A DNA stretch of 64,000 nucleotides from Brachionus manjavacas (taxonomy: Eukaryota > Rotifera > Eurotatoria > Ploima > Brachionidae), in the NCBI GenBank assembly GCA_019054805.1, contig JAHQIY010000007.1:3477501-3541500 (forward strand), in the 5' to 3' direction. Position 1 is the stretch's first letter. Every line of letters starts with the position of its first letter. The notes beneath the pieces were generated by a model. The model had not been told where the DNA came from and made no database searches. It saw only the letters and a list, made by a program, of their open reading frames with translations. Positions 15,785 through 53,521 of this stretch are shown one piece after another. Made by a program: the position numbers and the translations under genes.

Positions 15785-18700
15785 ATGGACTTGCTTGATC
15801 AAATTGATGATTTGACATTTTTTACAATCCTGTGGCCAATTATTTCAATAATTGGTATTCTGGCAAATTTATCAGTCATATTCGTTTTACCAACCAAAAA
15901 ACAAACGCCTACTGAATATTTTTGCCTAAATTTAGCGCTATCAGATTTATTATTTTTAATTGTGTGTCCTACAATGCTGCTAATAAATCAACATGAACTC
16001 ATCATTTACGACGATTTGCCTTTAATTTTGTCAAACGTAATTTGCAAATCAAATTTCTTTTTGACTTATGTAATAATTTTTTATGATTTTTTTCTACTCA
16101 TGGCTTGAATTTGATTATTATTTATAAAAAGTTGATCAGTTTGTATTAGTGAAAATCTTATTTTATATTAATAGAATCGTTTTAAGGTTTAAAATTTGTT
16201 CTGTAAATGAAAGAAACTTATAGAGTCCGATTAAATTTCCTAATTGTAGAAAATAAATTTATAACATAGTTTGACGGTTCACTATTTTTTTGTTTTAAGG
16301 AATACGAGTGTATACGAGTAAACAAGGTACTTTTGAAATGTAAATGGTCATTAAATGGCCTCATTGCTTTACTTTACGGATTGTTTTAAAATAAATTGAA
16401 TTAGTATCTTTTCCTTAAGTAAAGTTCATGAGGTAAACTAAAAGAGATAGTAAATTGAAGCTTATAAACAAATTTAAATAATCATCATCACAATTTATTA
16501 ATTAAAAAAATTCATATATTGAAGATCAAGTTAAGCATTGAATGCTGAATATACCAACATGATGCAGCATTAAATTTTTGTAATTAAAAATTATTTAAAA
16601 AAAGTTTTAAATATTCCTTGAATTTGTATAATTTATTTAAAAATTCTGCTGTAGTAAAAAAAAAAACTTAATTTCTAAGCATCAGTTTTGGCAAACGGGA
16701 TGGCATTTGCATTGGAGATGTCATCTTCAAAGTTCTTTTAAATAAAACTTATTTATTAAACATGTTTTTTTTAAAGATTTTTTTCTTACTGTGAAGTATA
16801 GTAAATAAAATAAAATGAGCAGAATTTAACAAAATATTTTGAAATCAAATCTACAAATAAATTTTTTTTGTTGAAAGTATTTATTTATGCCATGAGTACA
16901 TCTTAAAAATGTTTTTCTTGTTCCATCTTTGCGTCATCATAATGTAAAACAACAATTTTGTGCGCGCTTTTTTTTTTTATAAATTAACTCATTGGAACCT
17001 TTTAATTTAAATTTTGATCTCTTTTTAACTTAATCAAAAATATCTCAAAAAAAATTAAAAAGTATTAAATTAGTTGACATAATAATTGCTGAGATTAAAA
17101 AAATATTTTTTTTAAATAAGAATAAATAATTATATGCAATTCAATTTTTTAAACGTATTTGGTATATCTGCCATTCCTGCTCGATCAAAGAATCAAAGTC
17201 ATTTATTTGGTGTATTTATGATTTAATAGTTTAGATAGAATAAAATTTAGAAGATTGAAGTTAAGAGTGATTGAGAAGAACAGAAGAGAAATCTTAGCAG
17301 AGGCATTATAAAATTTGCTCTGAAGGTCTCGACAATAATCTAAAAGTTAAATCTAAAACTTTTAAAAGCCTTCAAAGTCATTTATAGAACTTTCAGAAAG
17401 CTTACTTTAATGTTTTCATTAATATTGATTATGTCCCAGTACTTCATTCACACATAACAAAATTCACTTGGTTTAAATATTTTATCAAAAATTTTTAATC
17501 AAATGTTTTCGTTTTAGCTCAGTGTGTTTATTACATGCTTGACTTTAATGACAATGACTTTTGGTAAGATAAATTAAAATTCTTAAATTTTTTAATTAAA
17601 ATTACTAACTATTTAACTGTAAAATATAGATCGATTTTATGTAATCGTATTTCCACTTAATTCAATGGCCCACAGAAGTAAAAATAAAGCTATAATTATT
17701 AATGTACTCATTTGGATAAGTAAGTGATAATGATATTTTTAAACCTATTAAATTTTATAAAATTGTATTTGTTGATTTATTTTTAGATATCTATGCAAAC
17801 ATAGAACTTTATAAAAGTAATATAGTGAAGACGATAGAATAAAGAATTTATTTTTATAAGATTTAAAAATGTTAAGCTATTTTTCTTTGATTTTGTTAGG
17901 GGGTAAAGACCACCATTTTAAGTTAGTATCTCTTTAAATTCTTCGGTTAAAATTTCGGAATAACTACACCTACATTCTACATTTATTTAAATAAAGTCTT
18001 AGCAAACGTAGAAAAGTTAGTGTGATACAGTGACATCATTGTCGATATCACTGGAAAGTTGATTAACTTAATCATGAGCGTTTAAGTTAACAAAGAGAAA
18101 AAACAGCTTCTCCAATACGTCTTACGAGAAGATCGGATAGACGGGTCAAAGGGTTGTAATGTAAATATTACAGTTAGGTTCTATGAAATTAAGTACAAAT
18201 TGAAGAAAAATATTTCCTTCTTTTAGTAATTTTATCTTAAACATATTCTATTACAAGCTATTTTAGGTAATTTAAAATTTGATAATTAAATTTCATAAGA
18301 ACCAAAGACCGTAGCACCACTGTACCTTTATCTAGCTAAATTATCTTCAATTCCAAAGCTAACTTAATAAAGCTACTTTTTTAACACTAGCAGCACCAAA
18401 AAAGTCATTTAACTCGTTATAAAAAATTTCAAAGTTATATTATTAATTTTACAATTATTTTTAGCTTTATTATTTTATTTTTTTTTCAAAAAACACACGA
18501 AAAAATGCTTAAGGATTTTAGTGTTAATATTTTTCTAATTTTATTTGAATTTCGAGGTTCTTGGATCAAAGAGTTGGTCGGCTAGAATGGAGCCGACCTT
18601 GTCTTTTCTTTCAGCCATATAAAGTTTTCATAAAAAAAGTTTTTATGAAAAAATTTTAAACTAATATTGAGCTAAAAATAAATCATTAGGTGCAAACGAG

Positions 18701-19856
18701 GGTAATCTCTAAACTCTTAAAATGCAACGATATATTTTTTATTCTCTTTTATTTCAATATTATAATTTTTCAAAATCTCGAATAGATATAGGCCTAAAAA
18801 AATTTACCTATTTTTACTAAAAAATTTCAAATTTTTGAACCGATTCAATTAGAATTAGAATTAAAAATTTAAAAAAATATTTAAATAGCTTTTAAAATAA
18901 TTTTTCAATCTTAATTTTTCAATCTTTATCCCTGTCTTTAAATCTAAATTCCAATTTTAAGTTTTGTTTCGCTTTTCATATAATCTTAGTTCTTTAACCC
19001 GATTTTTTGGTTTTTTGGTACGGAGATAATTTTACACATTTGATTTTTGAATAATAATTTAAAAGATCAATGATGAATCACAGCTAGCATAGATTTAAAA
19101 AAATGAATTGATAAAATAAACCTCAATTAATTCAATTTTTTTTAGTTTCAATCATATTGAGTGTTCCCCAAGGCTTTCTTAGGGTCTTAGCTCGTACAAA
19201 TGATACAAACATAACATTTTGCTCATCCGCTTTATTTACCAAACAAACAGTAGACTTTTATTTTTTAAAGCTTGACTTTGGTCAACTTGATATACTTTTC
19301 ATTGTATTGATTTCTTATGTGGTACCTTTAGTCACTATTATTTTTTGCTATCTGATAATGATAATCAAGCTTTATGGAAGAAAGAAAAATGTAAGAGTAT
19401 AAAACATTTGATTGTTCAATTTGAAATTAAATTTTAATTTTATAGGTTAAGTCGGAGAATAACTTACCGAATAGAGTTAATAAATGCCTTATTATGATTG
19501 CATCGGTCACTATTCTTTTTGGTGTCTCCTGGCTGCCAATTCATTCAATTTATTTAACTATTAAATTTTGGAAAGATTTTCCATTTGAAAGCAATTTAAT
19601 GTTTTTGATAAAGAACATAGCACATACTCTAACTTATCTGAATAGTATGCTCAATCCATTTTTTTATACAATTATGAGTAACAGCTTCAGAATAAAATTC
19701 AACTTTAAGATGTCTAGATATTCTACAAGTAACAAATTGAGTAGCAACAACTTTAATCGAAATAGTATGCTAACGAAGCGTTCATCACCGAATTGTTCAA
19801 TGCGACAAAAGAATACTGGTGCTTACAGGTACAGATGCATGATTCAGCGTTGTTGA
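15785..19856 (+). CDS. Rhodopsin-class GPCR, probably a neuropeptide receptor
   Basis: Five exons, 15785-16069, 17518-17563, 17630-17719, 19146-19390 and 19446-19856, keep phase and give about 358 aa. TM1 has the ILANLSV motif (conserved Asn), and TM2 has LNLALSDLLFLIVCP. The disulfide Cys of TM3 is in VICKSNF, with its partner in FCSSAL. The TM3 end is DRFYVIVFP, a DRF variant of DRY. TM6 is GVSWLPIHSIYLTIKFW, and TM7 ends LNSMLNPFFYTIMSNSFR. The CWLP-like and NPFFY motifs resemble allatostatin-A/galanin-type receptors, but I cannot name the ligand. The C-terminal tail is Ser/Asn-rich. Introns 1 and 3 are long (1.45 and 1.43 kb); intron 3 holds a retroelement copy. Confidence 0.85.
18341..18622 (-). 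mobile_element. Retroelement 3' end in GPCR intron 3
   Basis: In minus-strand sense this runs from TGGCTGAAAGAAAAGACAAG, through an inverted repeat (GTCGGCT...AGCCGAC), to the terminus GGAATTGAAGATAAT. The terminal 235 bp recur almost unchanged, with two differences seen, inside an intron of the minus-strand KIF28 copy at 23395-23620. The shared 3' end with different 5' lengths fits target-primed retrotransposition. The GGCTGAAA....CCATTC block also occurs in the 3' UTRs of the LINEs at 1.4 kb and 33.0 kb. Confidence 0.6.
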
Positions 19857-19998
19857 TCAAAAAATCAACGAATTTTTTTTGTTTTTTTATTGACCGGTTA
19901 AAGTTTTAAATTTTGTTTTATTAAATATTAAATTTAAATAAAATTTTTTAAAAAGGTGAGTCAGAGTTTTAAAAATTCAAAATCCTTTGAATCATGTT

Positions 19999-22900
19999 TT
20001 ATAGTATACTACAAGCTGAGCTCTTGGTACGAGTTCCTCTATAGTTGCTTCCAAGTGATGAAATACTGCTTCCACTAGTTGGTCTTCCGTCACCTTCTAG
20101 TCAATTAGAAAATTTTTTTAAATCTAAATTTAAGCTTTTATTATTAAATTACTCTTATTGCTTTTAAATTGTGTCAATAAAGCCCTAACTTCATTTTCAT
20201 TTTTAGCATTGATAACGCTGTTTAATGTCTGACTGCTTATCGGCGAGGTCCCGGCTGCATGCATTAATCTGTAAATGTTTCTCTATTTAATTTTAAAATT
20301 TGAATATTTATGATGGATTATTGTGAGCAATAATTACAATTATTGTTTCATTTTTTTGATTATTTATCAATGCAATGTGCAGATCATTTCTAAGTTTTTG
20401 TTTTTCAGGGTCCATTAACTAAAAATTGAATGTTAATTTTTTCTATTTATCGATATTAACGATTGATTACATGATTGATGACAACTTTTCCTGATACAGA
20501 ATTATTGTTCAATTCTTTTTCTCTGTGGAAGTATTCTTTAGTGGAGATTTTAGATGCTTTTGGATCTGGCTTGGCATGTTTTTGTTCTGACCAAATTTGA
20601 ATATATAAGCATTTATTCAGGATAAAATCCAAAAACTTTTAAAAGTAAATTATTTTTGAACAAGATTCTAAAGCTCGATAATTATTACTTGCTCAGTGGC
20701 GGTAAATGTAAATTGCTTTGAATATTTAAAATTATTATCTTTTCCACCTTTAATGGAGTTTGTTTTATAAATTGTTTGATCGCCAGGTAATTCGAATTGA
20801 CAATAAATGTCCTAAACATTTTGATAATAAAATAATTTAATTCTTAACAAAAACTTAATTTTAATAAATACTTCGTATCTTGAACCCAAATTCTTTAGTT
20901 CAGCAATATTTATTAAGAAAGTAACAGTTTTATTGACTAATTCGGCCTTTGGGTCATTTATCTGAATTGGATCACTCAATGGCTTACCCTGACCATTGCA
21001 TGGTACAATTTCAACATTTAGTGAACCTGCTTGCTTGCTTTTCAAACTTATGATTTTGTAGTCATCTTTATTTTTAAGCATGTAAGCAAACGCCTTCGGA
21101 AATACCATTGCTGATCCGATCAAATTAGGTGTATCCGGCGATTCGTGGAATGGATCATAGGCCTCGAATAAAAAATCAGATTTTGTGGAAACAGATAAAA
21201 ATTTTATCTAAAATTACTTTAAATTTGTCCTGATTTATTATTCCATCGTCTTTAAAATCATTGTAAATTTCTATTATATCAGATTTTCTGTCCATAAATT
21301 TTTCCTTTGTCCAAATCCATTCTAAGCCTAAAGCGAAATTTTTGACCGAAACAAAAACTTTGAATTTGCCATCATAAGCACCTCTTGCATCAGCCGATAC
21401 TGGTAAAGCTGTGAATATAACTTTTTTGTCTAAAGCAATTGAAACAGCGTTTGCTTCCTCAATATGTGGAATTAAGTCAATTAATTCAGATTGGCACTGA
21501 ATTTCTTCTCGTGTCATGTTACTATTTTCTTTGGAAATCAAACCAGAAGCATTTGCTATTTCATCTTGCATTGTCTCAAAAGTAACTTGGGGATCGTTGG
21601 AGCTAGCTTTAGATGGATCTACGAAAACATAATATTGAGATGATCCAAACAATAGCCTATCCATGTGCGTTAATTCAGTTGGTGCAACAACAGGTTTACC
21701 ATTTAACAGTGTCTTAGAGTCATTCAATCGTTCTATAGTAAAAGTTCCTGCAGTATTGGATAAAGACGCATGATGGTCATTAATACAAATTCCTTTGATT
21801 AAAATATCAGAATCAGCTGCCAAACCAATTTTTTTAATTCCTTCTCCTTCAATCAAATGAAAAATTGTTCCTGAAAGAGTAGGATCCATGTTGACATTTC
21901 GTAAATGAGGAGTAGTTTTAGCTTTTTCATGTTGTTTATTTGAACCAAAATTTCCGGTCTTTTTATTATTAGTTCAATGAAACATGAAGAAAATTATAAA
22001 ATAGGAAATTACCAAAGCTTTAGCTTCGGCCAATTTCTGCTCATAAGATTTTTGCATTTCTTCCATATTTTTATCGTTTTCTTCCAACTGTTTTCTTAGT
22101 GCTTCCTCATCAGCTATTAAAATTATAAATTTTAGAATTTAAAGACTAAAACAAAGTGCCAGTAAAAATAAACCGTCATCATCATCTCCGTCGCCTTTGA
22201 GCAAAGAAGGGTCAATATTTCCACCTTCAAGAAGCTTTTTAAGTTTAGCATTCTCTTCTTTCAAGTCACGAATCAATTTTTCTGTAGGATCTTCATTCAC
22301 TATGGCTTTGGTTTTAATTTGTTTGGCTCTGTCAGCTATTAATAAAGAAAAAAATGGTTTAATTTAAAAAAAAAAATCTTCTAAAAAAAATTCAACAAAA
22401 AATTACCATATCTCAGAGTGGAGACAGATTCAGCATAATTTATGTCCGCTGGACTAATAGCGGCAATCTAAACATTAAAAAAAGATTAATTCTAAAGATA
22501 GAATTGAACTTTAAAAATGAAAACTTAAAATATTTTAAATTAAGGAAACAAACAGTTTTGTTAAGAAGGTTTAAAAGTAAAAAAAAATAATTTGGAGATT
22601 TTTTTAGAAAAATTTAAAATTCAAGAAAAATTAATCCTGATTAATGAAATATTAGTATTCTCATATAAATTCTAAGAAAATTGAAATAGATTAAAAAAAA
22701 TCATTTTACATAAAATTAAGTAATTAAGTATTAAATTAAGTATTTAGTTAAAAATTAAAGAAAAAAGCTCACCATAATAGTTTTAGAGTTACCACCCAAA
22801 GCATTCATCAAAAGTTTGGTCAAAACTGAATCTCTATATGGAACTAACAAAAACATAAAGTTACAAAAAACCAATTTTGTTCTAATTAAGAGTATACCTC

Positions 22901-24427
22901 TGACATTTTTACCAGCTGAATTGTCTGCCAAAGCACTGATTACATTTCCAAGCGATGTCAATGACAAGTTGATTGCAGCTCCTTCTTTCAATCTATCACC
23001 AGTAGCTCCGGTTGCATCAGCTCTCTCGCTGCCAGCCAAATCGACTAGATTTATCAGAGACGATTTGGCCATTTCGGCACCAGCATCATTTTTATATTTT
23101 TGAATCAAATTTATTGTCACAATCGTATGGGCTCTGCTGCTTGTTGCATTCATGTTGGTAGCAGCTATTGTTCTATTAGCTGTTCCTTCATCCTTTTAAA
23201 GATTTACTCTACTAATCAGTTTTTTAGATAAAATCAATGTTTTACCATTAGTTTTACAATGTCGTCATAGCTGTCAACAAGAACTTTTTTCTGGCCCTGT
23301 GCTTTAAATGGAAGAAATTTTATGAATTAATATTTTTTTAAATAGATAATATATTTGTTATTGAATTGATAATATATAATATAATTATCTTCAATTCCAA
23401 AGCTAACTTAATAAAGCTACTTTTTTAACACTAGCAGCACCAAAAAAGTCATTTAACTCGTTATAAAAAATTTCAAAGTTATATTATTAATTTTACAATT
23501 ATTTTTAACTTTATTATTTTATTTTTTTTTCAAAAAACACACGAAAAAATGCTTAAGGATTTTAGTGTTAACATTTTTCTAATTTTATTTGAATTTCGAG
23601 GTTCTTGGATCAAAGAGTTGATAAAATATAATATAATTGAATTAAAAGGCAAAATTTTTTTGTTCCTAAATTCAAAAAATAATCAATTACCATAAAAACC
23701 ATTTTTAGGATCCTGTCTAACTGGCAAACCAGATCTTCGATTAGCACTCGGAGCTAGCAGATCTCGAACAACTTCACTGTAAATCTCAAGCATACTAAAA
23801 GTTACCTTAAAAAATACAGAAAAAAACAATTTAGAATCATTTTTTATTTTCCTTATTGAAAATTGCTACTTCAATGTTCTTGCCGGATGCTTTCAGAGGT
23901 TCAGATTTTTTGAATATCTCTTCACAAGTAATGGGTACAATTCCCTTATTAGCTCCGTAACCAACAACAGAATAACTTTTCCCCGAACCAGTCTGACCAT
24001 AAGCGAAAAGTGTGGCATTGTAACCTTCCCAAGCATTGTTTAGAATTCCTTCGCCCAAATCACTGAATACTTTTTTCTAAATAAATCACTTATTTAAGAT
24101 ACAATCAATAAAAATTTTCTTGAGGTTTATCACTTGGTCGGCATAATTAGGCTTCGTTGCAGTCAAATATCCATTAGCATCTTCTTTGTATCCATCATGG
24201 CTCCTTGATTGAAAATTTTTTTATATATTTCAGAATTTTTTAAAGCCTTATTTATTTTATTACCAGTATGAAAAGTCGTAGGCATATTTTTTTTCTTCAT
24301 TTGTATCTGGTTCGCGGATGATTGTTTGATTTCCTGCCATTTCCACGATAAGCTTGGAGTTTGCATTTTTTTCACGACTATTAAATGGCCTTACCCTAAC
24401 AGCTACTTTAAGATTTTCTTCAGTCAT
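19999..24427 (-). CDS. KIF28/KLP-6-like kinesin-3 motor, copy A
   Basis: The ATG at 24427 ([15 protein letters not shown]) opens a kinesin-3 gene. First exon 24427-24264. The motor has the P-loop [10 protein letters not shown], switch I NATSSRAH and switch [12 protein letters not shown]. It is followed by a neck coiled coil, an FHA domain, and the KIF28-type region ending in a [14 protein letters not shown] block. The FHA-to-middle region is one exon (21958-21218), where copy B has six exons. In the motor, [12 protein letters not shown] replaces the usual [12 protein letters not shown]. The C-terminus is SSACSIL, a CaaX-like motif. An intron contains a 230-bp retroelement insertion. I found no frameshift. 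It is head to head with copy B across 914 bp. KLP-6/KIF28 kinesins are known from ciliated neurons and mitochondria. Confidence 0.88.
22013..24297 (-). repeat. Near-identical inverted arm (motor block of KIF28 copy A)
   Basis: This block, introns included, is nearly identical to 25469-27515 in inverted orientation, apart from a retroelement insertion of about 230 bp. Similarity drops sharply at both ends: within exon 1 (just before the codons for EEKKYAYDF) and in the intron after the last neck exon. The exons beyond both edges are clearly diverged. Confidence 0.8.
23395..23622 (-). mobile_element. 5'-truncated retroelement inserted in KIF28 copy A intron
   Basis: The insertion is absent from the matching intron of copy B. 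It matches 18341-18577 with two differences seen and ends at the same 3' terminus. It is flanked by near-duplicate AT-rich 15-16-mers (ATATAATATAATT core), which look like a target-site duplication. In the sense of the element it lies on the minus strand, in the same direction as its host gene. Confidence 0.7.
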
Positions 24428-25341
24428 TCCAATATCACTTTTCCTTTTTTTTCCAAGTTAATTACCAATATTTTAATTTAATCCTTTGGGATTTATTTAG
24501 TTTTATTTTTTGATTTATTTTGAATTTTTTGTATTTAAACTTTCATATTTTTTAAGCTTAAAAACAAATCTATTCTTTTAAAAGTTTCTAAGGTAACTTG
24601 CAAACTATCAGACTAACGCAACAAATTTATTATTTAAAATTTTAATTTTATTTACTTATTAAATTCGAAATTGTTGCGAGATTTTATTTTTTAGGGGTAA
24701 ATTCAGAAAGATTGACTAAAATATTATTCAGTTTATTTTTTATAATTTGATATATATTATTTTTATGAAGTTTCATCGCAACAGAATTATTTTTTTTTTT
24801 TTGTAACTTGGTTACATTTTTCCAATGACGTCATTAGCCAACTTTTTTTCAATCAAACCCCAAAAATAATCTTTGATATTACCACACTCCTTACATGACC
24901 CTTGCTGAAATTTTAGTCGGTTTTACATTTAGAAAATTTTTGCTTAACATAATAAAATCACTTTTAATCGATTTTATAAGCTGAAACTTTAGAAATTTCA
25001 AAAATTTGATTTTGAGCATGCTTAGACAAGTCAATGTAACTTTAAAAAAAAACACTAGAACAATAATTTATTAAACATTCTTTACGTCAGCTTCAGCTCA
25101 TAAATAGATGGTAAAATCAGTCAAAACACTACCGATTATTTTCAAAATTTTATTAAAAATTATAAAGTAATATCTTGAAGATATTATATAAAACTTTTGC
25201 CAAAAAGAAACGCTGATATTTAGGAAAATGTTTTAAAGGAAAATATAGAAAATTAAATGAGATAAGAAATAAATAGCAACAAATAACAAAAATATTAAAT
25301 ATAAAAATAATTTTAGATTAAAGAAAAAAATATTCATTAAA
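24428..25341. promoter_or_regulatory. Shared divergent upstream region of the two KIF28 genes
   Basis: 914 bp separate the two ATG codons, so both promoters must lie here or in untranslated leaders. The only conspicuous site is a perfect CRE palindrome TGACGTCA at 24826-24833, directly preceded by CCAA. Whether it is used is unknown. The region is otherwise AT-rich. Confidence 0.45.
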
Positions 25342-28300
25342 ATGTCAGAAGAAAACTTAAAAGTAGCAGTGAGAGTTAGACCGTTCAATGGTCGTGAAAA
25401 AGATGCAAAATCCAAGTTAATAGTTTCCATGACTGGAAATCAAACAATAATAATTGATCCAGAAACAGATGAAGAAAAAAAATATGCCTACGACTTTTCA
25501 TACTGGTAATAAAATAAATAAGGCTTTAAAAAATTCTGAAATATATAAAAAAATTTTCAATCAAGGAGCCATGATGGATACAAAGAAGATGCTAATGGAT
25601 ATTTGACTGCAACGAAGCCTAATTATGCCGACCAAGTGATAAACCTCAAGAAAATTTTTATTGATTGTATCTTAAATAAGTGATTTATTTAGAAAAAAGT
25701 ATTCAGTGATTTGGGCGAAGGAATTCTAAACAATGCTTGGGAAGGTTACAATGCCACACTTTTCGCTTATGGTCAGACTGGTTCGGGGAAAAGTTATTCT
25801 GTTGTTGGTTACGGAGCTAATAAGGGAATTGTTCCCATTACTTGTGAAGAGATATTCAAAAAATCTGAACCTCTGAAAGCATCCGGCAAGAACATTGAAG
25901 TAGCAATTTTCAATAAGGAAAATAAAAAATGATTCTAAATTGTTTTTTTCTGTATTTTTTAAGGTAACTTTTAGTATGCTTGAGATTTACAGTGAAGTTG
26001 TTCGAGATCTGCTAGCTCCGAGTGCTAATCGAAGATCTGGTTTGCCAGTTAGACAGGATCCTAAAAATGGTTTTTATGGTAATTGATTTTTTTTTTGAAT
26101 TTAGGAACAAAAAAATTTTGCCTTTTAATTCAATTATATTATATATTGTCAATTCAATAACAAATATATTGTCTAATTGAAAAAAATATTAATTCATAAA
26201 ATTTCTTCCATTTAAAGCACAGGGCCAGAAAAAAGTTCTTGTTGACAGCTATGACGACATTGTAAAACTAATGGTAAAACATTGATTTTATCTAAAAAAA
26301 ACTGATTAGTAGAGTAAATCTTTAAAAGGATGAAGGAACAGCTAATAGAACAATAGCTGCTACCAACATGAATGCAACAAGCAGCAGAGCCCATACGATT
26401 GTGACAATAAATTTGATTCAAAAATATAAAAATGATGCTGGTGCCGAAATGGCCAAATCGTCTCTGATAAATCTAGTCGATTTGGCTGGCAGCGAGAGAG
26501 CTGATGCAACCGGAGCTACTGGTGATAGATTGAAAGAAGGAGCTGCAATCAACTTGTCATTGACATCGCTTGGAAATGTAATCAGTGCTTTGGCAGACAA
26601 TTCAGCTGGTAAAAATGTCAGAGGTATACTCTTAATTAGAACAAAATTGGTTTTTTGTAACTTTATGTTTTTGTTAGTTCCATATAGAGATTCAGTTTTG
26701 ACCAAACTTTTGAAGAATGCTTTGGGTGGTAACTCTAAAACTATTATGGTGAGCTTTTTTCTTTAATTTTTAACTAAATACTTAATTTAATACTTAATTA
26801 CTTAATTTTATGTTAAATGATTTTTTTAATCTATTTCAATTTTCTTAGAATTTATATGAGAATACTAATATTTCATTAATCAGGATTAATTTTTCTTGAA
26901 TTTTAAATTTTTCTAAAAAAATCTCCAAATTATTTTTTTTACTTTTAAACCTTCTTAACAAAACTGTTTGTTTCCTTAATTTAAAATATTTTAAGTTTTC
27001 ATTTTTAAAGTATTCTATCTTTAGAATTAATCTTTTTTTAATGTTTAGATTGCCGCTATTAGTCCAGCGGACATAAATTATGCTGAATCTGTCTCCACTC
27101 TGAGATATGGTAATTTTTTATAGAATTTTTTTTAGAAGATTTTTTTTTTAAATTAAACCATTTTTTTCTTTATTAATAGCTGACAGAGCCAAACAAATTA
27201 AAACCAAAGCCATAGTGAATGAAGATCCTACAGAAAAATTAATTCGTGACTTGAAAGAAGAGAATGCTAAACTTAAAAAGCTTCTTGAAGGTGGAAATAT
27301 TGACCCTGCTTTGCTCAAAGGCGACGGAGATGATGATGACGGTTTATTTTTACTGGAACTTTGTTTTAATCGTCAAATTCTAAATAATTTAATTTTAATA
27401 GCTGATGAGGAAGCACTAAGAAAACAGTTGGAAGAAAACGATAAAAATATGGAAGAAATGCAAAAATCTTATGAGCAGAAATTGGCCGAAGCCAAAGCTT
27501 TGGTAATTTCCAATTTTTTTTTTCTTGTCTAATTTCTTTTGAAGGCTGGAAGTTCTGACAGAATCGCAATTTTTGAAAAGGCAAAAAAAACTCCTCACCT
27601 CTCCAACATCAATATGGATCCGTCTCTTTGCGGAAGTATTAAAATTTTACTTGAAGGAGATGGTCCTAAAAAAATAGGTCTCTCTGATCAGTGCGAAATA
27701 TCTCTAAAAGGAATCGGGTACTTTTGTTTGTTAGCATTTTTATTAAATTATAATTAAATTTTCTTAGGATACTGGATGAACATGGTACAATTTCAAAAAC
27801 TGCAAACAAATTTGTAATTGAGAGACTCAATGATTCCAAAATTCTACGTAATGGTATTTTGTTAAGCTCGCCTTCCGAACTTGCTCATCTAGATAGACTT
27901 GGTATTTTAAAGTTAATTTCTTTTTTAAAACCTTTATCAAATCATTTTTATTTTAGTATTTGGTGCATCACAGTATTATTTATTTGTCGATCCGACCAAA
28001 GCAAGTTCCAAAGATCCAGTATTCACATTCGAAATGGCACAAGACGAAATCGGAAAAGCTTCCGGATTTATTTCAAAGGACAATAATTCACATTTAACAA
28101 AGGGTATTGTTTTGGAACCACTAAAAAACTTGTCGCTAAAATTTTTTTTTCAGATCAATTACAATGCCAAGCTGAATTGATTGATTTGTTGCCTCAAATC
28201 GAAGAAGCAAATGCTATATCCATCGCTTTGGACAAAAAAGTTGTTTTCACAGCCATTCCTGTTTCAGCTAGTGCAAGGTTAGTATTAATAATTTTTAAGG

Positions 28301-30437
28301 TGAGAATTTATAGTAAATAATAACAAATTAAATTGGATAAAAAAAATTTAATTCATGCATAAAAAGAAAAATCTTAATTTAGAATGATGAAAAACGCACA
28401 AACTAATATTTTTGAAATGTGAAAATCACATTAATAAATTTTTAAACCAAAATTAAGTCACTAAAAAGTTATATAAAATAATTTTAATTAAATATTCTTT
28501 TTTTCAATTATTATTAATATAATGAATTGAGTTTTACAACAATGTTAATGTCTGATTACTGAAGTTCTTAATATTTTTTTTCATTTTTATTTTCATTTTC
28601 TAAATTTTTTATTCAAAAAGTATCAAGTTCATAAAAAATTTATTTTTTATTTTTTTTCAATTCTTAACCTTTATTTGTTATATCTTAAATTTTTAATTTA
28701 TTTATTCCTTAGGGGAGAATATGATGGAAAAGTTAAAGTATTTTAGATTAATTGTTAATTTGATTTTCATAGTCTTTATCTTTGTATTTAAGGCATATGT
28801 GTCAGTGAAAAATTTTGCAACTGGTCTAGAATGGCTGTGGAAAAAGGAGAAATTCCTAAACAGAAAAGCAGATATGACTGAACTGTATCTTGATTTTAAA
28901 GACGATGGTGTTATCAATCGTGACAAATTCAAGGTATGTGCAGCAAACTTTTTTTTTCACAAAATTTTTGTTAAAATAATTTTTTCACTTTGAAAAACTA
29001 AGAGCAAAAACAAACAGGTTCTTTCATTTTTTACATTTTTATGTTTCGGGAAATAGCTTGAAATTATATATAGATAATCATTACTTGTAAACATCTGGCA
29101 CAATTTTTTATGTCTTTACATACTATTTCATATTAAAAACTAGCTTGAAAGCTTGAAAAAAGCTTACAATTTTTTTAATTTTTTTTTGAATTCTAGCTTT
29201 ATGATCCATTTTATGAATCACCTGATACTCCTACTCAAATCGGAACAGCTATGATTTTTCCCAAAACTCTACCATACATGCTTCCTAACAAAACCGATGC
29301 AAAGATTCTAGATTTGAGAAGTAACGAAGCTGGTAGCGTTCAAATAGAGATATTACCATGCAATGCTTCTGGAAAGCCATTTACAGAGAAAGAATACGAA
29401 GAAGCTGGTAGTAATCTGATAGCTGATCCGAAAACTGACTTGTTAAATAAGCCCATTAGTTTTTTGATCAAAATTGGAGCCGCAAATATTGACAATCCAA
29501 TATACGAAGTAAAAAAATATAAAATTAAAAAATTAAATTAAATTAATTTATTTAAAATTTTCCAAGGATATTTATTGTTCGTTTCAAGTTTACAAAGAGC
29601 CAACATTGATTAAGACAAACACAATCAAAGGAACTAATAAGCCTGACTTTAAGTTCAGCCAAAATTTTACATTTATTGCAACTGAAGAAGTAAATTTTTG
29701 AAAATAGAAGAATTAAAACTAATTTTTATTTTTAAAGATATTGAATTTTTTATTAAATAAATGTTTTTATATTCAAATATTTGGAGAACAAAAACACCCA
29801 TCTCCGGAACAATATAATAGCAAAATAACAACAAAAGAATATTTTGAGAGAGAGAAATTAAACTCTCAAAATAACATTATTGGCAAAGTTTCAAATAATG
29901 TAAGCTAGAGAGATTAGTTAGTTATTAAAATATTTGTAAAAATAAAACATTTAGATCGATCCAGAATCGGAAAAATTGAGAGATGAATTAAAATTAAGTA
30001 AAACTAAAATAATGCGCTTAGAAAAAACAATCGTATGTCTAAAGAATTTTTAATAAAAACAAATGTCTCCTAAAATTTAAAATTCAAATAAAGGGGTCAT
30101 TTAATATTCAAAATAATTATTTAAAAAAAAAATTGTTTAGGTAAATTTGAACAAAATTTTGGAAATTTCTGGCGGATTACCGATCGGTGCGAATCATTTG
30201 CAAAGAATTTTGTATTGTTCTAATGATCAAGAAGCTAGTAAAATTTTCAATGATTACAGCAAGTCAAAAGGTTTAAAATAGCAAAAATAAAATATAAAAT
30301 TTTATCCAATTTTTTTTTAAGAAAAATTTTCGCAATATAGTGATAATAAAGATGGAGTTGTTGTGAGCATTAATGGTCAAGAATTTGATTTTGGAAATGG
30401 AAAAGATGGAAAAACTGCTGTTTGTTCTATATTATAA
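25342..30437 (+). CDS. KIF28/KLP-6-like kinesin-3 motor, copy B
   Basis: I could join 22 exons in phase, giving 988 aa: 25342-25505, 25566-25635, 25693-25899, 25964-26078, 26218-26273, 26329-26623, 26678-26748, 27049-27109, 27180-27341, 27402-27502, 27545-27717, 27768-27901, 27957-28103, 28154-28277, 28713-28737, 28793-28933, 29197-29508, 29567-29689, 29738-29899, 29955-30032, 30141-30270 and 30322-30437. The motor domain has [16 protein letters not shown] and [11 protein letters not shown] neck coiled coil ([20 protein letters not shown]), an FHA domain, and the KIF28 middle block ([18 protein letters not shown]) follow. It ends AVCSIL, a CaaX-like motif. Human KIF28P is of similar length. 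The product should be a plus-end microtubule motor; its cargo is unknown. Confidence 0.9.
25469..27515 (+). repeat. Near-identical inverted arm (motor block of KIF28 copy B)
   Basis: Partner of 22013-24297. Exons and introns are almost unchanged between the two, against clear protein divergence in exon 1, the FHA domain and the tail. The two arms face each other around a spacer of about 1.2 kb. Confidence 0.8.
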
Positions 30438-30644
30438 CAAAACTATGATTTAACAAAGTCATATTTTACAGAAAAAACTTATTACTACCATTTGCTTTAA
30501 CCTGATAACTTAAATAAAATTTTAGAATTATTAATCTGGTTTTTTTCTGATCAAAATCTTAGCACTGGTTTAGGGTATCGGGTAAGCAGAAGATTAGGGT
30601 CTTTTTAAATAATTAGTTTTAAATTTAATTTAGTGGTTTATTTC

Positions 30645-31240
30645 AGACTTGTTTTTAAGTTACAGTTTTAAGTCTAAGTCACAAAAATTTAAGTCAAAGT
30701 CATGACTTAAAAATTTTTTTTTTTAGTAAAAGGCTAAGTAAAGCCGGTCAGCTTGACGGTCAAAATTTTGGACCGTTTAAAAAATCGCTAAAAAAAAGCG
30801 TGCAGTCAAAAAAACGGTCAACATTGTGGCGGGCGGTCATTAGCCGTTCAGCTTGGCGGCCAGAGTTTTGGACTGCCGCGCTGAAAAAAATAGGTTAAAA
30901 TATCAAAAAAAATTAAAAAATTAATATAATTAAATATGTTTATTAAATAATAAAAAAAAAACATATTTTAATAAAAAAAAACAAAAAAATACCAACGGCC
31001 AACAATCACCCGCTACCAACAACCCCAAACTACAAACAACTTTCTTCCAACAACCACTAACAACAATACTACTACTACTTTACTATTAATAACTACTAGT
31101 ACTACTACTACTTCTACTTAACTATTATTATAACTACTACTACTACTTTACTTCTATTATAACTACTACTACTAAGTCATGACTTTGACTTTAAAAAAAA
31201 AAAAAATTTTAAGTCATTGACTTGACTTAAAAAATCAAAT
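30645..31240. mobile_element. Short element with AAGTCA-type inverted ends
   Basis: The left end has TTAAGTCAAAGTCATGACTT plus an A/T run. The right end has the inverse, AAGTCATGACTTTGACTT, plus an A/T run. Inside are a G+C-rich block with a diverged internal duplication (GTCAGCTTGACGGTC..TTTTGGAC and TTCAGCTTGGCGGCC..TTTTGGAC) at 30755-30885 and a CAA/ACT-rich simple repeat. No coding frame is seen. It is probably a non-autonomous transposon. Confidence 0.5.
31065..31172. repeat. Imperfect (ACT)n trinucleotide repeat
   Basis: Blocks of ACTACTACTACT alternate with TTACTATTA-type interruptions, preceded by a CAA-rich stretch. This is a simple repeat inside the element above. Confidence 0.8.
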
Positions 31241-32948: not shown

Positions 32949-34235
32949 TATTTATTTTATTAAAAAAATAATTTAGGAAAAGTTTTTTCCAGGGCAGTTC
33001 CGAATGGCAGAGCCTACTTTTCAGCCCACATGGTTGCAATATGATTAAGATATGTATTAATTATATGTGTATAATTATATAAATTGAATATAAAAGATTA
33101 AATATAAATTGTTAAATTAAATTTTTGCTAAAAGTTTGGCGTGTTAATGATTGAATCAAAGGGTGTTTTGTACTTTAAATTGTTTCTGGAGGAGTTTTGA
33201 AGCAGAAAGTCCTGGATCTCCTGAGCTATTATTTCATGGCTTTGCCTTGTGGTGATAAATTTAGAAAAAAGCTTGTTTGCTCTGTCATCAATCAAGTCGA
33301 TTCTTAGCTTTATGGATTGTTTTGATACTTGTCTTTAGTTTAGTGGAAAATACTTTATGATTCGCAACACTCGATTTTGCATTTTTTGCATTTCGGCTCT
33401 TATGTTCTGAGTGCCTGACTGATGTTTTATAAAACAGAAGTCGAATAATGATCGTATAAGCGACATGTATAAAATTCTGTTGATTTTAAAAGATGATCTC
33501 CATTTAAAACTTTTAATTTTCCTGATTAGGTTTATTTTGGAAATTTGTTTTGAATTGATAAATTTCAAATGTTCTTTGTAGTTGATTTTGGGATCTAGTT
33601 TAATACCAAGGAATGTTGGATTTGGGTTAAGAGGAATATGTGAGTTCCCAATTTTTATTTTCATTCCATATCTTTTCTCATAATTTTTTCGAAGTCCAGC
33701 TTTGGTAAATGTTTTGTAGCAAGTTTTTTTTTCGTCAATTTTAAATCCCCATTTTTTGCAGTACTCAATGATTCTATTCACTGCCTTTTGAAGAATTATT
33801 TGAATTTCTTTTTTACTGGTCCTGGATACCCAGATACAGAGGTCATCTGCGAACAAGGCTATTTTTACATCAGGAGGAATACTATTAGCGATATCGCTAA
33901 AAAACAGAATAAAAATGGTAGGGGATAGGCAACTTCCTTGAGGGACTCCACATTTAATAGACTTATCTTTTGAAGTCTAGCCATTATAGCTGACTCTGAA
34001 AGAGCGGTTTGTGAGAAAGTCTTCAATCCATCGGAGAAATACTCTATGAAGATTGTGTTCTTTTAATTTTGCAATTATACCATTGTGTGATGTTTTATCA
34101 AAGGCTTTCTCAAGATCGAAGAAGATAGCTCCTGTTAGTTGATAACCAGACACATGTGTATTGAAAATTCGATATAGCGGGTTGATTTTGCTGGAGGGTA
34201 TTGCTAACTCTAAGCGATTTGATTGGTTATACAAA
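32949..34235 (-). mobile_element. 5'-truncated Jockey-like LINE (RT half and 3' UTR)
   Basis: The minus strand encodes reverse-transcriptase pieces. 34234-33977 contains TGAIFFDLEKAFDKTSHNGI and the motif FLTNRSFRVSYNG. 33856-33335 contains FADDLCIWVSRTSK (FADD active site), then FLGIKLDPKINYKEHL and a C-terminal end. Between them a TAG at about 33975 and a frame change interrupt the protein. The 3' UTR includes the shared GGCTGAAAA...CCATTC block at about 33030-33000, and the element ends in an AATAAAATAAATAAT-like tail at 32949. It starts inside ORF2, as 5'-truncated LINEs do. Confidence 0.85.
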
Positions 34236-34394
34236 AGAAAATATTTTTTTTTGAATTTAAATAAAATTTGACATTCACATTAATAAAATTCGATGTGATA
34301 TTTTTACTCTTAACTAGATTGCCCAAATAAAAATTAATTTTTGTAAATTCAAAAACTAAGAGTGTTTAATATTTAAGTAACAACTAAAAAATAC

Positions 34395-34688
34395 TTGACC
34401 AGACTAAATTTAACAGACTACGTGGGACCTCAATTTTTTCAAGACGAAGAACGCAATAATTGGATACCAGTAAATCCAAAATGTGCATATTGTAAATTGG
34501 TTAAAGGCACCTGTACACAAATGCCTTTAAGATTAAACTATGCATTAACCATTCATAAATCCCAAGATCAAACCCTTCAACTTGCTGTTATTGACCTTGG
34601 AAAGTCTGAAATGTCTCTTGGTTTAACTTTCGTAGCCTTATCAAGGCTAAAAAATGTAAATGATCTTTTAATAGCACCTTTCCCATAA
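34395..34688 (+). pseudogene. Pif1-like helicase C-terminal fragment (Helitron type)
   Basis: The open frame has the end of a Pif1-family helicase. PLRLNYALTIHKSQDQTLQL is the conserved block normally written LNYALTIHKSQGQT, and it is followed by VIDLGKSEMSLGLTFVALSR and a short tail. A CAYCKLVKGTC zinc-like pair precedes it. Upstream Walker A and B motifs are absent. The Gly-to-Asp change in HKSQGQT hits helicase motif V/VI territory. Such Pif1 ends usually come from Helitrons in invertebrates. A GC-rich hairpin follows 45 bp downstream. Confidence 0.75.
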
Positions 34689-34732
34689 GATAGATTGACA
34701 TGGATAAGAAATTGTAAGTTATAACACCCCTC

Positions 34733-34755
34733 CAGCAGACCCCGGGGCCTTGCTG
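34733..34755 (+). repeat. GC-rich hairpin, possible Helitron 3' end
   Basis: CAGCA and TGCTG arms enclose a CCCCGGGG palindrome, in otherwise AT-rich DNA. Helitrons carry a short GC-rich hairpin just before their 3' terminus. I see no clear CTRR end right after it, so the link to the helicase fragment is only suggestive. Confidence 0.4.
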
Positions 34756-35629
34756 TATTTCTTTAAATATTAATGTTCCTTTTCCTTTTGAAATTTTAAA
34801 AAAAGAAGTTAGAGAAGAGTGAAATAGAGTGAAAACCAGTCGACTAAGAATATAATTTTTAGTCGACTAGTTTTTAGCTAACTAAAATTTAGTTAACTAA
34901 AAATAAATAACCTAAAAACTAGTTGACTAAAAATTAGTTAACTTATTTTATAATATGCAGAAAGTGAGATATCTAAGGAATAGTGAGACAAAAAAATATT
35001 TAAAAACATTGATTTGACATTATATAATTTTTTTTAATTTTTAGTTAATATCTTGAATTTGATTTTGATAATTAATCTATTGAATTTTAATTAAAAGAAA
35101 CATTCCTTTATTTAGACAGTTATACATTTTTTTATGAGAAAATTTTTTAAAAGAGGAAAGGTAACAAAACCAGATGTTATTAATTTAAGTCGTTATTTAA
35201 TGTTATTTATTTATTCTGTTGGTTGCTTTGTTGATTCCATAATTTATAATCAATTAAATTCAAAGGTTTAAAGAATCATTAATTGATAATTTACTCATAT
35301 TTTAATTTATTTGAGTTTCTGCTACAGAAAAATCATGCTAATTGCTTTAGTTATAACTTTTATTTAGTAAAAATTTTCTAAAAAATAAAATATTTTAATA
35401 ATTAAACTTTAGTTAATAATTTTAGTTTAGTCGACTAAAAATAAGTCAACTAAAAATTAGTTAACTAAAAACTAGTCGACTAAATTTTAGTTAACTAAAC
35501 TAAAGAGAAAACTCCCATCACTAATTAAAACAGCAACTAAATTCATAAATGCAAATGGAGAATTAATCTTAAAAACAAAAGATGATTCTAAAATTGACTA
35601 CTTGAGAAAATTTCCATGTAATTCTGTCA

Positions 35630-36178
35630 ATTTCACAATATCTTTATTTGACTACTGTTTTATAATACTTCAATCAGGTACTCAATATAATTTAAACATA
35701 AGGAAGTTTAACATGTCTTTAAGTAATCTGTTTCTATCTCAGTTGAGTTTTTGGCGTTACTTAGTATGTTACAAAAATGTTTCAACGAACGGTGATGTTC
35801 TAAAAACTTTTCTTTCGGAAAAATCAAAAGAAACCATAGCCGAACAATTTCAAATTCTTTTATCTAAAGACTTATTTATTTAAAAAATATACAAAACTTA
35901 AATTAAATCAAATGATTTTGAGACTTTTTTGTGGAAAATAAAACTAAAATTCAAAAAATTAAAACTACAGATTTGTTCTGAATTTTGTCAGTAAGAACGT
36001 GAAGTTTTTAGAACATCACCGTTCGTTGAAACATTTTTGTAACATACTAAGTAACGCCAAAAACTCAACTGAGATAGAAACAGATTACTTAAAGACATGT
36101 TAAACTTCCTTATGTTTAAATTATATTGAGTACCTGATTGAAGTATTATAAAACAGTAGTCAAATAAAGATATTGTGA
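35630..36178. repeat. Inner inverted repeat (about 178-bp arms)
   Basis: 35630-35809 and 35999-36178 are inverted copies of each other separated by 189 bp. In one reading the arm encodes SLFDYCFIILQSGTQ, which resembles SLFDFCFIKHQSGTQ of the nearby LINE at 33.4 kb, so the arm itself is LINE-derived. The same structure recurs at 37829-38377 in unit 2. Confidence 0.8.
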
Positions 36179-36980
36179 GTGACACATATAAATTCTGTTG
36201 ATGATAAAAAAATAATCTGCAATTAAAACTTTAAATATTACTGATTAGGTTAATTTTGGAAATTTGTTCTGAATTGATAATTTTCAAAAATTTTGTGTAA
36301 CTGATAATAAGATCTAATTTAATTCCAAGGAATGTTAGATTTGGGTCAAGAGGAATATGTGAGTTTCCTATCTTTATTTCATTTCAAATATTTTATCATG
36401 ATTTTTCGAAGAATCCCCATCTTTTGCAGGACTCAATGATTCTATTCACTGTCTTTTGAAGAATTATTAGAATTTCTTTTTAATTGGTATTGAATGCCCA
36501 AATAAAAGGTTGGTAGAATTTTTGAGGTTTCTGCTCAATTGTGAATCCTTTGATTTACACTTTTTCCAAGCTATTTGGCTAAGCAACTGAGGAGGGATAT
36601 TGGCCAAGTTTTTGGCAGTTGAAGCATTTGAAGCATTGAATCGAATTTTCACTGACTTCCTCTAATTTGCGTATGTCCGATTATGGAAAATCGATTTTTT
36701 GTAATTTCGCTAAATTTTTCTAGAAGAAAAGTGACTGCTTTGACTATTGATGGCTAGACCTGTTGATTTTTTTGTCATTCCAAGAACATCATCAATATCA
36801 AGGGTTTCTTTGAGAATTTTCTTGCACTCTTCAGTTTCAACATTGAATTTAATTTCTGCATTGTGCAATGCAAGGTATTTTTTGTTCTTTTATTTCTGTT
36901 TTACCTTAATTGACAGAATTACATGGAAATTTTCTCAAGTAGTCAATTTTAGAATCATCTTTTGTTTTTAAGATTAATTC
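36125..36980 (-). pseudogene. LINE fragments captured inside the foldback element
   Basis: 36125-36480 on the minus strand is a diverged copy of the reverse-transcriptase region at 33390-33800 (shared plus-strand words such as AATTCCAAGGAATGTTAGAT and GGAATATGTGAGTTTCC). 36480-36980 reads like an ORF1 piece with a zinc-knuckle-like CFKCFNCQKLGQ. The two parts are joined with most of the LINE missing between them, and stops interrupt both frames. A second copy lies in unit 2 (about 38324-39010). Confidence 0.65.
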
Positions 36981-37670
36981 TCCATTTGCATTTATGAATT
37001 TAGTTGCTGTTTTAATTAGTGATGGGAGTTTTCTCTTTAGTTTAGTTAACTAAAATTTAGTCGACTAGTTTTTAGTTAACTAATTTTTAGTTGACTTATT
37101 TTTAGTCGACTAAACTAAAATTATTAACTAAAGTTTAATTATTAAAATATTTTATTTTTTAGAAAATTTTTACTAAATAAAAGTTATAACTAAAGCAATT
37201 AGCATGATTTTTCTGTAGCAGAAACTCAAATAAATTAAAATATGAGTAAATTATCAATTAATGATTCTTTAAACCTTTGAATTTAATTGATTATAAATTA
37301 TGGAATCAACAAAGCAACCAACAGAATAAATAAATAACATTAAATAACGACTTAAATTAATAACATCTGGTTTTGTTACCTTTCCTCTTTTAAAAAATTT
37401 TCTCATAAAAAAAATGTATAACTGTCTAAATAAAGGAATGTTTCTTTTAATTAAAATTCAATAGATTAATTATCAAAATCAAATTCAAGATATTAACTAA
37501 AAATTAAAAAAAATTATATAATGTCAAATCAATGTTTTTAAATATTTTTTTGTCTCACTATTCCTTAGATATCTCACTTTCTGCATATTATAAAATAAGT
37601 TAACTAATTTTTAGTCAACTAGTTTTTAGGTTATTTATTTTTAGTTAACTAAATTTTAGTTAGCTAAAAA

Positions 37671-39717
37671 CTAGTCGACTAAATTTTAGTTAACTAAACT
37701 AAAGAGAAAACTCCCATCACTAATTAAAACAGCAACTAAATTCATAAATGCAAATGGAGAATTAATCTTAAAAACAAAAGATGATTCTAAAATTGACTAC
37801 TTGAGAAAATTTCCATGTAATTCTGTCAATTTCACAATATCTTTATTTGACTACTGTTTTATAATACTTCAATCAGGTACTCAATATAATTTAAACATAA
37901 GGAAGTTTAACATGTCTTTAAGTAATCTGTTTCTATCTCAGTTGAGTTTTTGGCGTTACTTAGTATGTTACAAAAATGTTTCAACGAACGGTGATGTTCT
38001 AAAAACTTTTCTTTCGGAAAAATCAAAAGAAACCATAGCCGAACAATTTCAAATTCTTTTATCTAAAGACTTATTTATTTAAAAAATATACAAAACTTAA
38101 ATTAAATCAAATGATTTTGAGACTTTTTTGTGGAAAATAAAACTAAAATTCAAAAAATTAAAACTACAGATTTGTTCTGAATTTTGTCAGTAAGAACGTG
38201 AAGTTTTTAGAACATCACCGTTCGTTGAAACATTTTTGTAACATACTAAGTAACGCCAAAAACTCAACTGAGATAGAAACAGATTACTTAAAGACATGTT
38301 AAACTTCCTTATGTTTAAATTATATTGAGTACCTGATTGAAGTATTATAAAACAGTAGTCAAATAAAGATATTGTGAGTGACACATATAAATTCTGTTGA
38401 TGATAAAAAAATAATCTGCAATTAAAACTTTAAATATTACTGATTAGGTTAATTTTGGAAATTTGTTCTGAATTGATAATTTTCAAAAATTTTGTGTAAC
38501 TGATAATAAGATCTAATTTAATTCCAAGGAATGTTAGATTTGGGTCAAGAGGAATATGTGAGTTTCCTATCTTTATTTCATTTCAAATATTTTATCATGA
38601 TTTTTCGAAGAATCCCCATCTTTTGCAGGACTCAATGATTCTATTCACTGTCTTTTGAAGAATTATTAGAATTTCTTTTTAATTGGTATTGAATGCCCAA
38701 ATAAAAGGTTGGTAGAATTTTTGAGGTTTCTGCTCAATTGTGAATCCTTTGATTTACACTTTTTCCAAGCTATTTGGCTAAGCAACTGAGGAGGGATATT
38801 GGCCAAGTTTTTGGCAGTTGAAGCATTTGAAGAATTTCTTTGAGAATTTTCTTGCACTCTTCAGTTTCAACATTGAATTTAATTTCTGCATTGTGCAATG
38901 CAAGGTATTTTTTGTTCTTTTATTTCTGTTTTACCTTAATTGACAGAATTACATGGAAATTTTCTCAAGTAGTCAATTTTAGAATCATCTTTTGTTTTTA
39001 AGATTAATTCTCCATTTGCATTTATGAATTTAGTTGCTGTTTTAATTAGTGATGGGAGTTTTCTCTTTAGTTTAGTTAACTAAAATTTAGTCGACTAGTT
39101 TTTAGTTAACTAATTTTTAGTTGACTTATTTTTAGTCGACTAAACTAAAATTATTAACTAAAGTTTAATTATTAAAATATTTTATTTTTTAGAAAATTTT
39201 TACTAAATAAAAGTTATAACTAAAGCAATTAGCATGATTTTTCTGTAGCAGAAACTCAAATAAATTAAAATATGAGTAAATTATCAATTAATGATTCTTT
39301 AAACCTTTGAATTTAATTGATTATAAATTATGGAATCAACAAAGCAACCAACAGAATAAATAAATAACATTAAATAACGACTTAAATTAATAACATCTGG
39401 TTTTGTTACCTTTCCTCTTTTAAAAAATTTTCTCATAAAAAAAATGTATAACTGTCTAAATAAAGGAATGTTTCTTTTAATTAAAATTCAATAGATTAAT
39501 TATCAAAATCAAATTCAAGATATTAACTAAAAATTAAAAAAATTATATAATGTCAAATCAATGTTTTTAAATATTTTTTTGTCTCACTATTCCTTAGATA
39601 TCTCACTTTCTGCATATTATAAAATAAGTTAACTAATTTTTAGTCAACTAGTTTTTAGGTTATTTATTTTTAGTTAACTAAATTTTAGTTAGCTAAAAAC
39701 TAGTCGACTAAAAATAC
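37671..39717. repeat. Tandem duplication unit 2, with an internal 170-bp deletion
   Basis: A near-identical copy of 35472-37670 that lacks about 170 bp (the part corresponding to about 36634-36803). Both junctions lie at CTAGTCGACTAAA, one of the subterminal repeats, which suggests unequal recombination or template switching at that motif. It ends with a third copy of the roughly 650-bp outer arm (39065-39717). Confidence 0.85.
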
Positions 39718-39734
39718 TTGTACTTTATAACCGT

Positions 39735-39835
39735 ACTTGTTTTGTAACATACTAAGTAACGCCAAAAACTCAACTGAGATAGAAACAGATTACTTAAAGA
39801 CATGTTAAACTGCCTTACGTTTAAATTATATTGAT
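39735..39835. repeat. Partial extra copy of the inner repeat
   Basis: TTTTGTAACATACTAAGTAA through ACATGTTAAACTGCCTTACG matches 36034-36125 with a few changes. It is a further remnant at the right edge of the foldback cluster. Confidence 0.65.
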
Positions 39836-53515: not shown

Positions 53516-53521
53516 TGAGAT

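Follow-up and report, generated by a model that had tools for sequence, protein, structure and literature searches.

Concerted evolution in inverted repeats is known from the inverted Hsp70 and Amylase gene pairs of Drosophila and from the palindromes of primate Y chromosomes, where whole genes or whole arms are homogenised. Adjacent inverted paralogues are also known substrates of gene conversion in Caenorhabditis elegans. Excerpts from a survey of 7,829 duplicate pairs in this species put conversion tracts at 117 bp on average, the extremes being 12 and 2,958 bp, and include the hsp16 and hsp70 pairs, neighbouring inverted genes in which a near-identical block stops short of old flanks (PMC3966223). 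Here we describe a locus of this kind in the rotifer Brachionus manjavacas. The window, which is the whole stretch of DNA that was analysed, comprises 64,000 nucleotides (assembly GCA_019054805.1, contig JAHQIY010000007.1, positions 3,477,501 to 3,541,500 of the forward strand; all positions below are counted within it). It contains two kinesin-3 genes that are head-to-head neighbours in the assembly, gene A reading leftward and gene B rightward, and that are nearly identical over about 2.0 kb of their motor part. As distinct from hsp16 and hsp70, this block covers one domain region, introns included, of genes with 17 and 22 exons, and the old flanks still lie inside the genes. In comparison to the fly and primate examples, the tails of A and B have escaped homogenisation.

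We aligned the reverse complement of 19700-24900 globally to 24900-30700 and determined the identity in bins of 100 columns. The resulting profile was step-like: all ungapped bins inside the tract showed 97-100% identity with a single exception at 91%, in contrast to 46-73% upstream and 46-80% downstream up to the stop codons. The bin spanning the right edge had 56 of 88 columns identical, five downstream bins consisted entirely of gaps, and a 252-bp insertion in A accounts for two bins that are all gap and is flanked by two partly gapped bins (74/75 and 68/71). Arm A of the tract extends over 22004..24300 on the reverse strand, starting in exon 1 with the second base of codon 43 and ending nine bases into intron 10; arm B lies at 25469..27511 on the forward strand, inverted relative to arm A. 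The outermost flanking differences are located at A 24301/B 25468, the first base of codon 43, and at A 22003/B 27512. Counted from A 24297, 20 of 2,036 aligned columns differ in this strict tract of about 2.04 kb. Five of the substitutions are found in exons (1,172 columns) and 15 in introns (864 columns, or 16/865 with the edge column 22003). Only two of the five exonic substitutions change a residue, at codon 315 (M in A, K in B) and codon 390 (S in A, A in B). Furthermore there are eight gap runs, seven of 1-3 bp and the one of 252 bp. A two-breakpoint maximum-chi-square scan from ATG to stop placed the tract at A 24300-21998 and B 25469-27517, with 21 differences in 2,045 columns inside versus 796 in 2,100 outside. 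The longest identical run measures 532 columns, a length that shuffled columns did not approach (at most 72, n=2,000). A DNA search of the same genome recovered the full-length block, among the 12 matches listed, only at A and B; nine of the 12 correspond to the source of the insertion and to short pieces. A sequence-only reading of the locus had described a block of about 2.0 kb that is nearly identical including its introns, with sharp edges and old diverged flanks, and these counts bear out both points.

Synonymous and nonsynonymous differences were counted according to Nei-Gojobori. The proportion of differing synonymous sites (pS) is 0.625 in codons 1-44 (17.5/28.0 sites), falls to 0.011 in codons 45-434 (3/267.8; synonymous divergence, dS, 0.011) and rises to 0.708 in the tail (245.7/347.0). 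Introns in the tract are as similar as its silent sites, with 7 differences in 831 columns outside a short island described below (15/864 in total). The 5’ part of exon 1 that would have stayed unconverted (A 24301..24427 on the reverse strand, B 25342-25468) carries the marks of old divergence: 33 of 43 residues are alike, the DNA of codons 1-44 is about 76% identical and the nonsynonymous divergence (dN) of these codons is 0.154. With pS ranging from 0.60 to 0.75 in exon 1 and tail, the duplication is older than the divergence of the block. For the tail we obtained a dN of 0.41 and a dS of about 2.2, giving a dN/dS of about 0.19; on this estimate, in which dS is near saturation, the tails of A and B evolve under constraint. 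The view of the sequence-only reading that they are free to diverge is therefore too strong, as 158 of 247 residues in the FHA block are the same in both proteins and both end in CSIL.

In order to place the pair we compared it with two further paralogues on the same contig, C (locus L019) and D (locus L020). Outside the tract A and B resemble each other more than either resembles C or D. The residues shared in the FHA block are 158/247 between A and B, 102/237 between A and C and 84/235 between A and D; in codons 1-43 the margin is small (33/43 for A-B, 30/43 for A-C). Since homologous flanks lie on both sides and the two genes are closest to each other outside the tract, these comparisons identify A and B as a real duplication of the whole gene, and the silent divergence makes it an old one. 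The loci of this type that a search with the FHA block of A recovered all lie on one contig, at approximately 0.38, 2.78 and 3.50 Mb, where the third position is that of the A/B pair.

The old homologous flanks on both sides, the recent block that includes introns, the sharp edges and the concordance of the introns are best explained by ectopic (interlocus) gene conversion within the inverted repeat, to which we assign a probability of about 0.86. This is also what the sequence-only reading had proposed for two inverted old paralogues, and the contrast between tract and flanks agrees with it. An old head-to-head kinesin-3 pair would have undergone conversion over 2.04 kb, beginning in exon 1 at codon 43/44 and reaching just into intron 10. 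One arm may have suffered a break for whose repair the other arm, some 1.2 kb distant, served as template, and the edges would mark the positions beyond which divergence between the copies no longer permitted strand exchange. The statement that conversion is confined to the motor block needs two corrections: the first 42-43 motor codons lie outside the tract, and A carries an insertion inside it.

The distribution of introns gives some indication of the direction of transfer. All nine intron positions inside the tract are concordant between A and B. Downstream, all six tail introns of A are matched in B, which carries five extra ones, so that 6 of its 11 introns are common to A. For C and D, we located the introns by visual inspection of the sequence. 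Tract intron 1 is common to D, introns 4, 7 and 8 are common to C, and introns 2, 3, 5 and 6 were found at the same position in neither C nor D, a D intron lying a few codons from intron 3; at the position of intron 9 C is uninterrupted. In the tail, intron 15 of B is located at the same place as in C and was probably lost from A, because both B and C have an intron there. For introns 11-14 of B no counterpart was seen in A or C in this comparison, which suggests intron gain in B; D has an intron two codons from intron 12, and around intron 14 C and D align only loosely. As the block shares with B’s tail, and not with that of A, the property of carrying private introns (2, 3, 5 and 6 in the block), the intron evidence weakly favours B, and we consider it the likelier donor.

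Next, we assessed how the remaining differences are distributed within the tract. Eight of the 20 substitutions fall into 33 bp of intron 9 (A 22126..22158 on the reverse strand, B 27357-27389), a clustering that was matched by none of 5,000 shuffles. When this island is set aside, 12 differences in 2,003 columns remain, and these are unclustered (719 of 5,000 shuffles reach the observed maximum). Our interpretation is a single recent sweep across the block, with the island either missed or older, and under conversion the last event would have spanned essentially the whole block apart from these 33 bp. Because the 12 differences are spread evenly, a single recent overwrite suffices to account for the present identity. 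The assertion that the two engines are kept identical can thus be retained for their present state, in which they are nearly identical, and not for a continuing process. Intron 9 itself (B 27342-27401, A 22114-22173) is open in frame in B and contains a stop codon in A, so that a version retaining it would be possible from B only.

Given conversion, we favour repeated events with a recent last sweep; a single leap into already diverged sequence is the less probable course, though one to be taken seriously. The exon DNA just outside the tract is only about 76% identical, and the block was therefore probably kept recombinable by earlier rounds. A specific form of the single event, in which one replicative template switch replaced the whole block in already diverged genes, is to us, as a share of the conversion model, likewise the less likely course. 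It would leave just such an evenly spread set of differences outside the island, and a length of about 2 kb, far over the mean tract of C. elegans, would suit it. However, the even spread would equally be left by the last full-length sweep in a recurrently converted block, and the island in intron 9, with its 8 substitutions in 33 bp, hints at a patchy history.

Several observations weigh against conversion as outlined here or against its details. At about 2 kb the tract far exceeds the 117 bp average of C. elegans, and it falls near the top of the length range in that species. The identity of the exons before conversion was maybe only about 76%, which is low for strand invasion unless conversion was recurrent, and the island in intron 9 is left unexplained by a single clean tract. 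In addition, A presents a mosaic with respect to the other paralogues: its motor block is nearer to D (230/326 residues, compared with 219/384 for C), its FHA block nearer to C. These residue counts leave the branching order of C and D relative to A and B mixed. Regarding the donor, the argument is built on few introns that were read by eye, and private introns occur in C and D as well. Codon 315 does not settle the direction either, being ATG in A and C, AAG in B and lysine in the structure 7wrg introduced below.

Among explanations other than conversion, partial duplication by exon shuffling would yield a chimera: the motor block, newly copied in inverted orientation, would have become joined to a kinesin tail of different and older origin. 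One duplication of the motor block seems to be present elsewhere in this genome, on contig C9: a kinesin with a frame of 646 amino acids at locus L030 and a frame of 298 amino acids at L031, which stops shortly past the motor, agree at 95% over 1,340 columns and lie about 30 kb apart in direct orientation. Unlike A and B, however, L031 has no long frame past the motor. Under a partial duplication one flank should lack a partner, but the flanks of A and B are homologous on both sides, in order and in frame: codons 1-44 have 76% DNA identity, the tails align and both end in CSIL. We therefore regard this origin as improbable. Similarly little weight is given to an assembly or polishing artefact, in which one arm was copied or homogenised in silico. 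Assembling inverted repeats of 2 kb is generally difficult, and paralogues with some prior similarity can be homogenised by short reads mapped to the wrong copy. On the other hand the arms are told apart by 20 substitutions, by the 252-bp insertion and by seven indels of 1-3 bp, and the edges of the tract fall within coherent genes that are homologous, keep open frames and have GT-AG splice sites. Purifying selection acting only on the motor protein is ruled out by the matching introns and silent sites, which are as alike as the protein (3/267.8), and by the near saturation of synonymous changes over codons 1-44, which belong to the same motor, although the motor is indeed the more conserved part (A versus C: 219/384 residues in the motor block, 102/237 in the FHA block).

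The insertion in intron 4 of A offers a second view on the timing. It comprises 252 bp at 23387..23638 (equivalent in the alignment to 23383-23634), and B has the empty site. We found that 238 bp match 18339-18576 at 236 positions; the rest consists of five further bases and a 9-bp direct repeat, ATATAATAT, recognised by eye. The divergence from the source (2/238, 0.8%) is close to that of the tract (20/2,036, 1.0%; without the island 12/2,003, 0.6%). As B in addition lacks the insertion, the simplest order is conversion first and insertion later; a large loop that escaped repair during conversion is the less simple alternative. The two copies of the 238-bp stretch, 18339-18576 and 23383-23620, are 99% identical and lie five kb from each other, and they contain an old repeat core that by eye is enclosed by short inverted ends, TTAACACTA...TAGTGTTAA. 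The stretch has at least five matches in the genome, and of the five listed only its own place and 18339-18576 are whole, the three others being partial and chiefly covering one core. A freshly moving transposon is disfavoured by this pattern; a local copy with an old repeat core inside describes the insert better.

To characterize the proteins we compared them with the Protein Data Bank. The best match of the B protein is 7wrg, which we take to be C. elegans KLP-6, over residues 5-859 (E 1.5e-208), followed by KIF1A and KIF13B among the best 60 of 164 matches. The tail of A matches 7wrg at E 1.5e-51, with a KIF1B FHA chain next (E 2.7e-9), and the FHA-block frames of D and C likewise have 7wrg as best match (E 7.6e-21 and 1.9e-12). 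A kinesin motor domain was detected on a piece of B (PF00225), and an FHA domain after the neck in A (PF00498, 35 bits, cut-off 20.7). By these matches A and B are kinesin-3 proteins of the KLP-6/KIF28 type, and the tail of A is nearer to KLP-6 than to KIF1 or KIF13. The likeness to 7wrg runs from the motor through the FHA domain and beyond. Features of the loci here are that several of this type are located on one contig and that A and B end in a CaaX box, which lies outside the residues matched to 7wrg. Excerpts of PMC12646758 report that the full-length structure of KLP-6 has been solved, that the LOV-1/PKD-2 complex is a cargo of KLP-6 in ciliated neurons specific to males, and that KIF28P of humans counts as a pseudogene.

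The CaaX box is the less expected part of the finding for a kinesin of the KLP-6 type. CSIL followed by the stop codon is located at 19999..20013 on the reverse strand in A and at 30423..30437 on the forward strand in B, and is kept in both despite a dN of about 1.06 over the last 76 aligned codons. For C, where the reading was by eye and stopped short of a full gene model, the final open exon has NDKE at its end and no CaaX box. CSIL is probably a prenylation signal, and geranylgeranylation is the likelier predicted modification because leucine stands last; according to passages of PMC3206815, proteins with this modification commonly have leucine or phenylalanine as their final residue. The same passages describe farnesylated kinesins, KinesinCaaX of Trypanosoma brucei and CENP-E, which share with A and B the N-terminal motor and the C-terminal CaaX box. 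They belong to other groups than the kinesin-3 proteins A and B: CENP-E is a kinesin-7, and KinesinCaaX is confined to kinetoplastids (PMC3206815). We found no report of a CaaX-prenylated kinesin-3 by title in the open-licence literature searched. If the CaaX boxes work, a lipid-anchored kinesin-3 joins the known farnesylated kinesins. The functional idea of a shared engine with diverging cargo ends is possible. A more elaborate version, in which a repeatedly overwritten engine is combined with two diverged lipid-anchored tails and conversion keeps two membrane-tethered, separately regulated motors in step, is doubtful.

The conversion of inverted neighbours is a known process, and A and B are a clear instance of it at a new place. 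In the open-licence literature searched we found no report of gene conversion in inverted kinesin paralogs or in the motor-domain paralogs of myosin heavy chains. The pair is an unusually clean natural case in which one block of a gene was converted, the rest was spared and the edges can be placed closely, and the probably later insertion in A provides a second time mark. It also holds a warning: trees of the motor domain would make A and B very recent duplicates, when their tails show that the duplication is old.

The gene models were assembled by hand from open frames and GT-AG borders and are predictions from the DNA; neither contains an internal stop. Gene A (19999..24427, reverse strand) has 17 exons and encodes 976 amino acids. 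Its exons 1-9 are located at 24427-24264, 24203-24134, 24076-23870, 23805-23691, 23301-23246, 23192-22898, 22843-22773, 22467-22407 and 22335-22174, and exons 10-17 at 22113-22013, 21958-21218, 21162-20872, 20811-20689, 20635-20471, 20418-20338, 20282-20153 and 20096-19999. Gene B (25342..30437, forward strand) has 22 exons and encodes 988 amino acids, with exons 1-11 at 25342-25505, 25566-25635, 25693-25899, 25964-26078, 26218-26273, 26329-26623, 26678-26748, 27049-27109, 27180-27341, 27402-27502 and 27545-27717, and exons 12-22 at 27768-27901, 27957-28103, 28154-28277, 28713-28737, 28793-28933, 29197-29508, 29567-29689, 29738-29899, 29955-30032, 30141-30270 and 30322-30437. Exons 1-10 are equal in length and phase in the two models, and downstream of exon 10 there are 7 exons in A versus 12 in B. 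The FHA block, for which A and B were compared as spliced models and C and D by eye, is formed by exons 11-16 of B (27545..28933, forward strand) and by one uninterrupted exon of 741 bp in A (21958-21218). The start codons are separated by a spacer of 914 bp (24428..25341), in which a forced alignment gives 46-61% identity per bin, so that there is no clear homology.

In the window neither Rfam at gathering thresholds nor ARAGORN returned a match. An open frame adjoining gene A (19446-19856) has the look of a rhodopsin-type receptor by eye. At 33408-39834 we noticed a dense nest of direct and inverted repeats, several of them of about 0.8-1.2 kb with more than 99% identity, which probably represents nested or tandemly duplicated transposons. 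An inverted pair of about 180 bp with 95% identity, spanning 1 kb end to end (57426-58432), resembles a terminal-inverted-repeat element. Finally, the open frames at 2225-3315 and 33338-33976 on the reverse strand and at 53519-55393 on the forward strand appear, by eye only, to be pieces of retrotransposons of the type lacking long terminal repeats (non-LTR).

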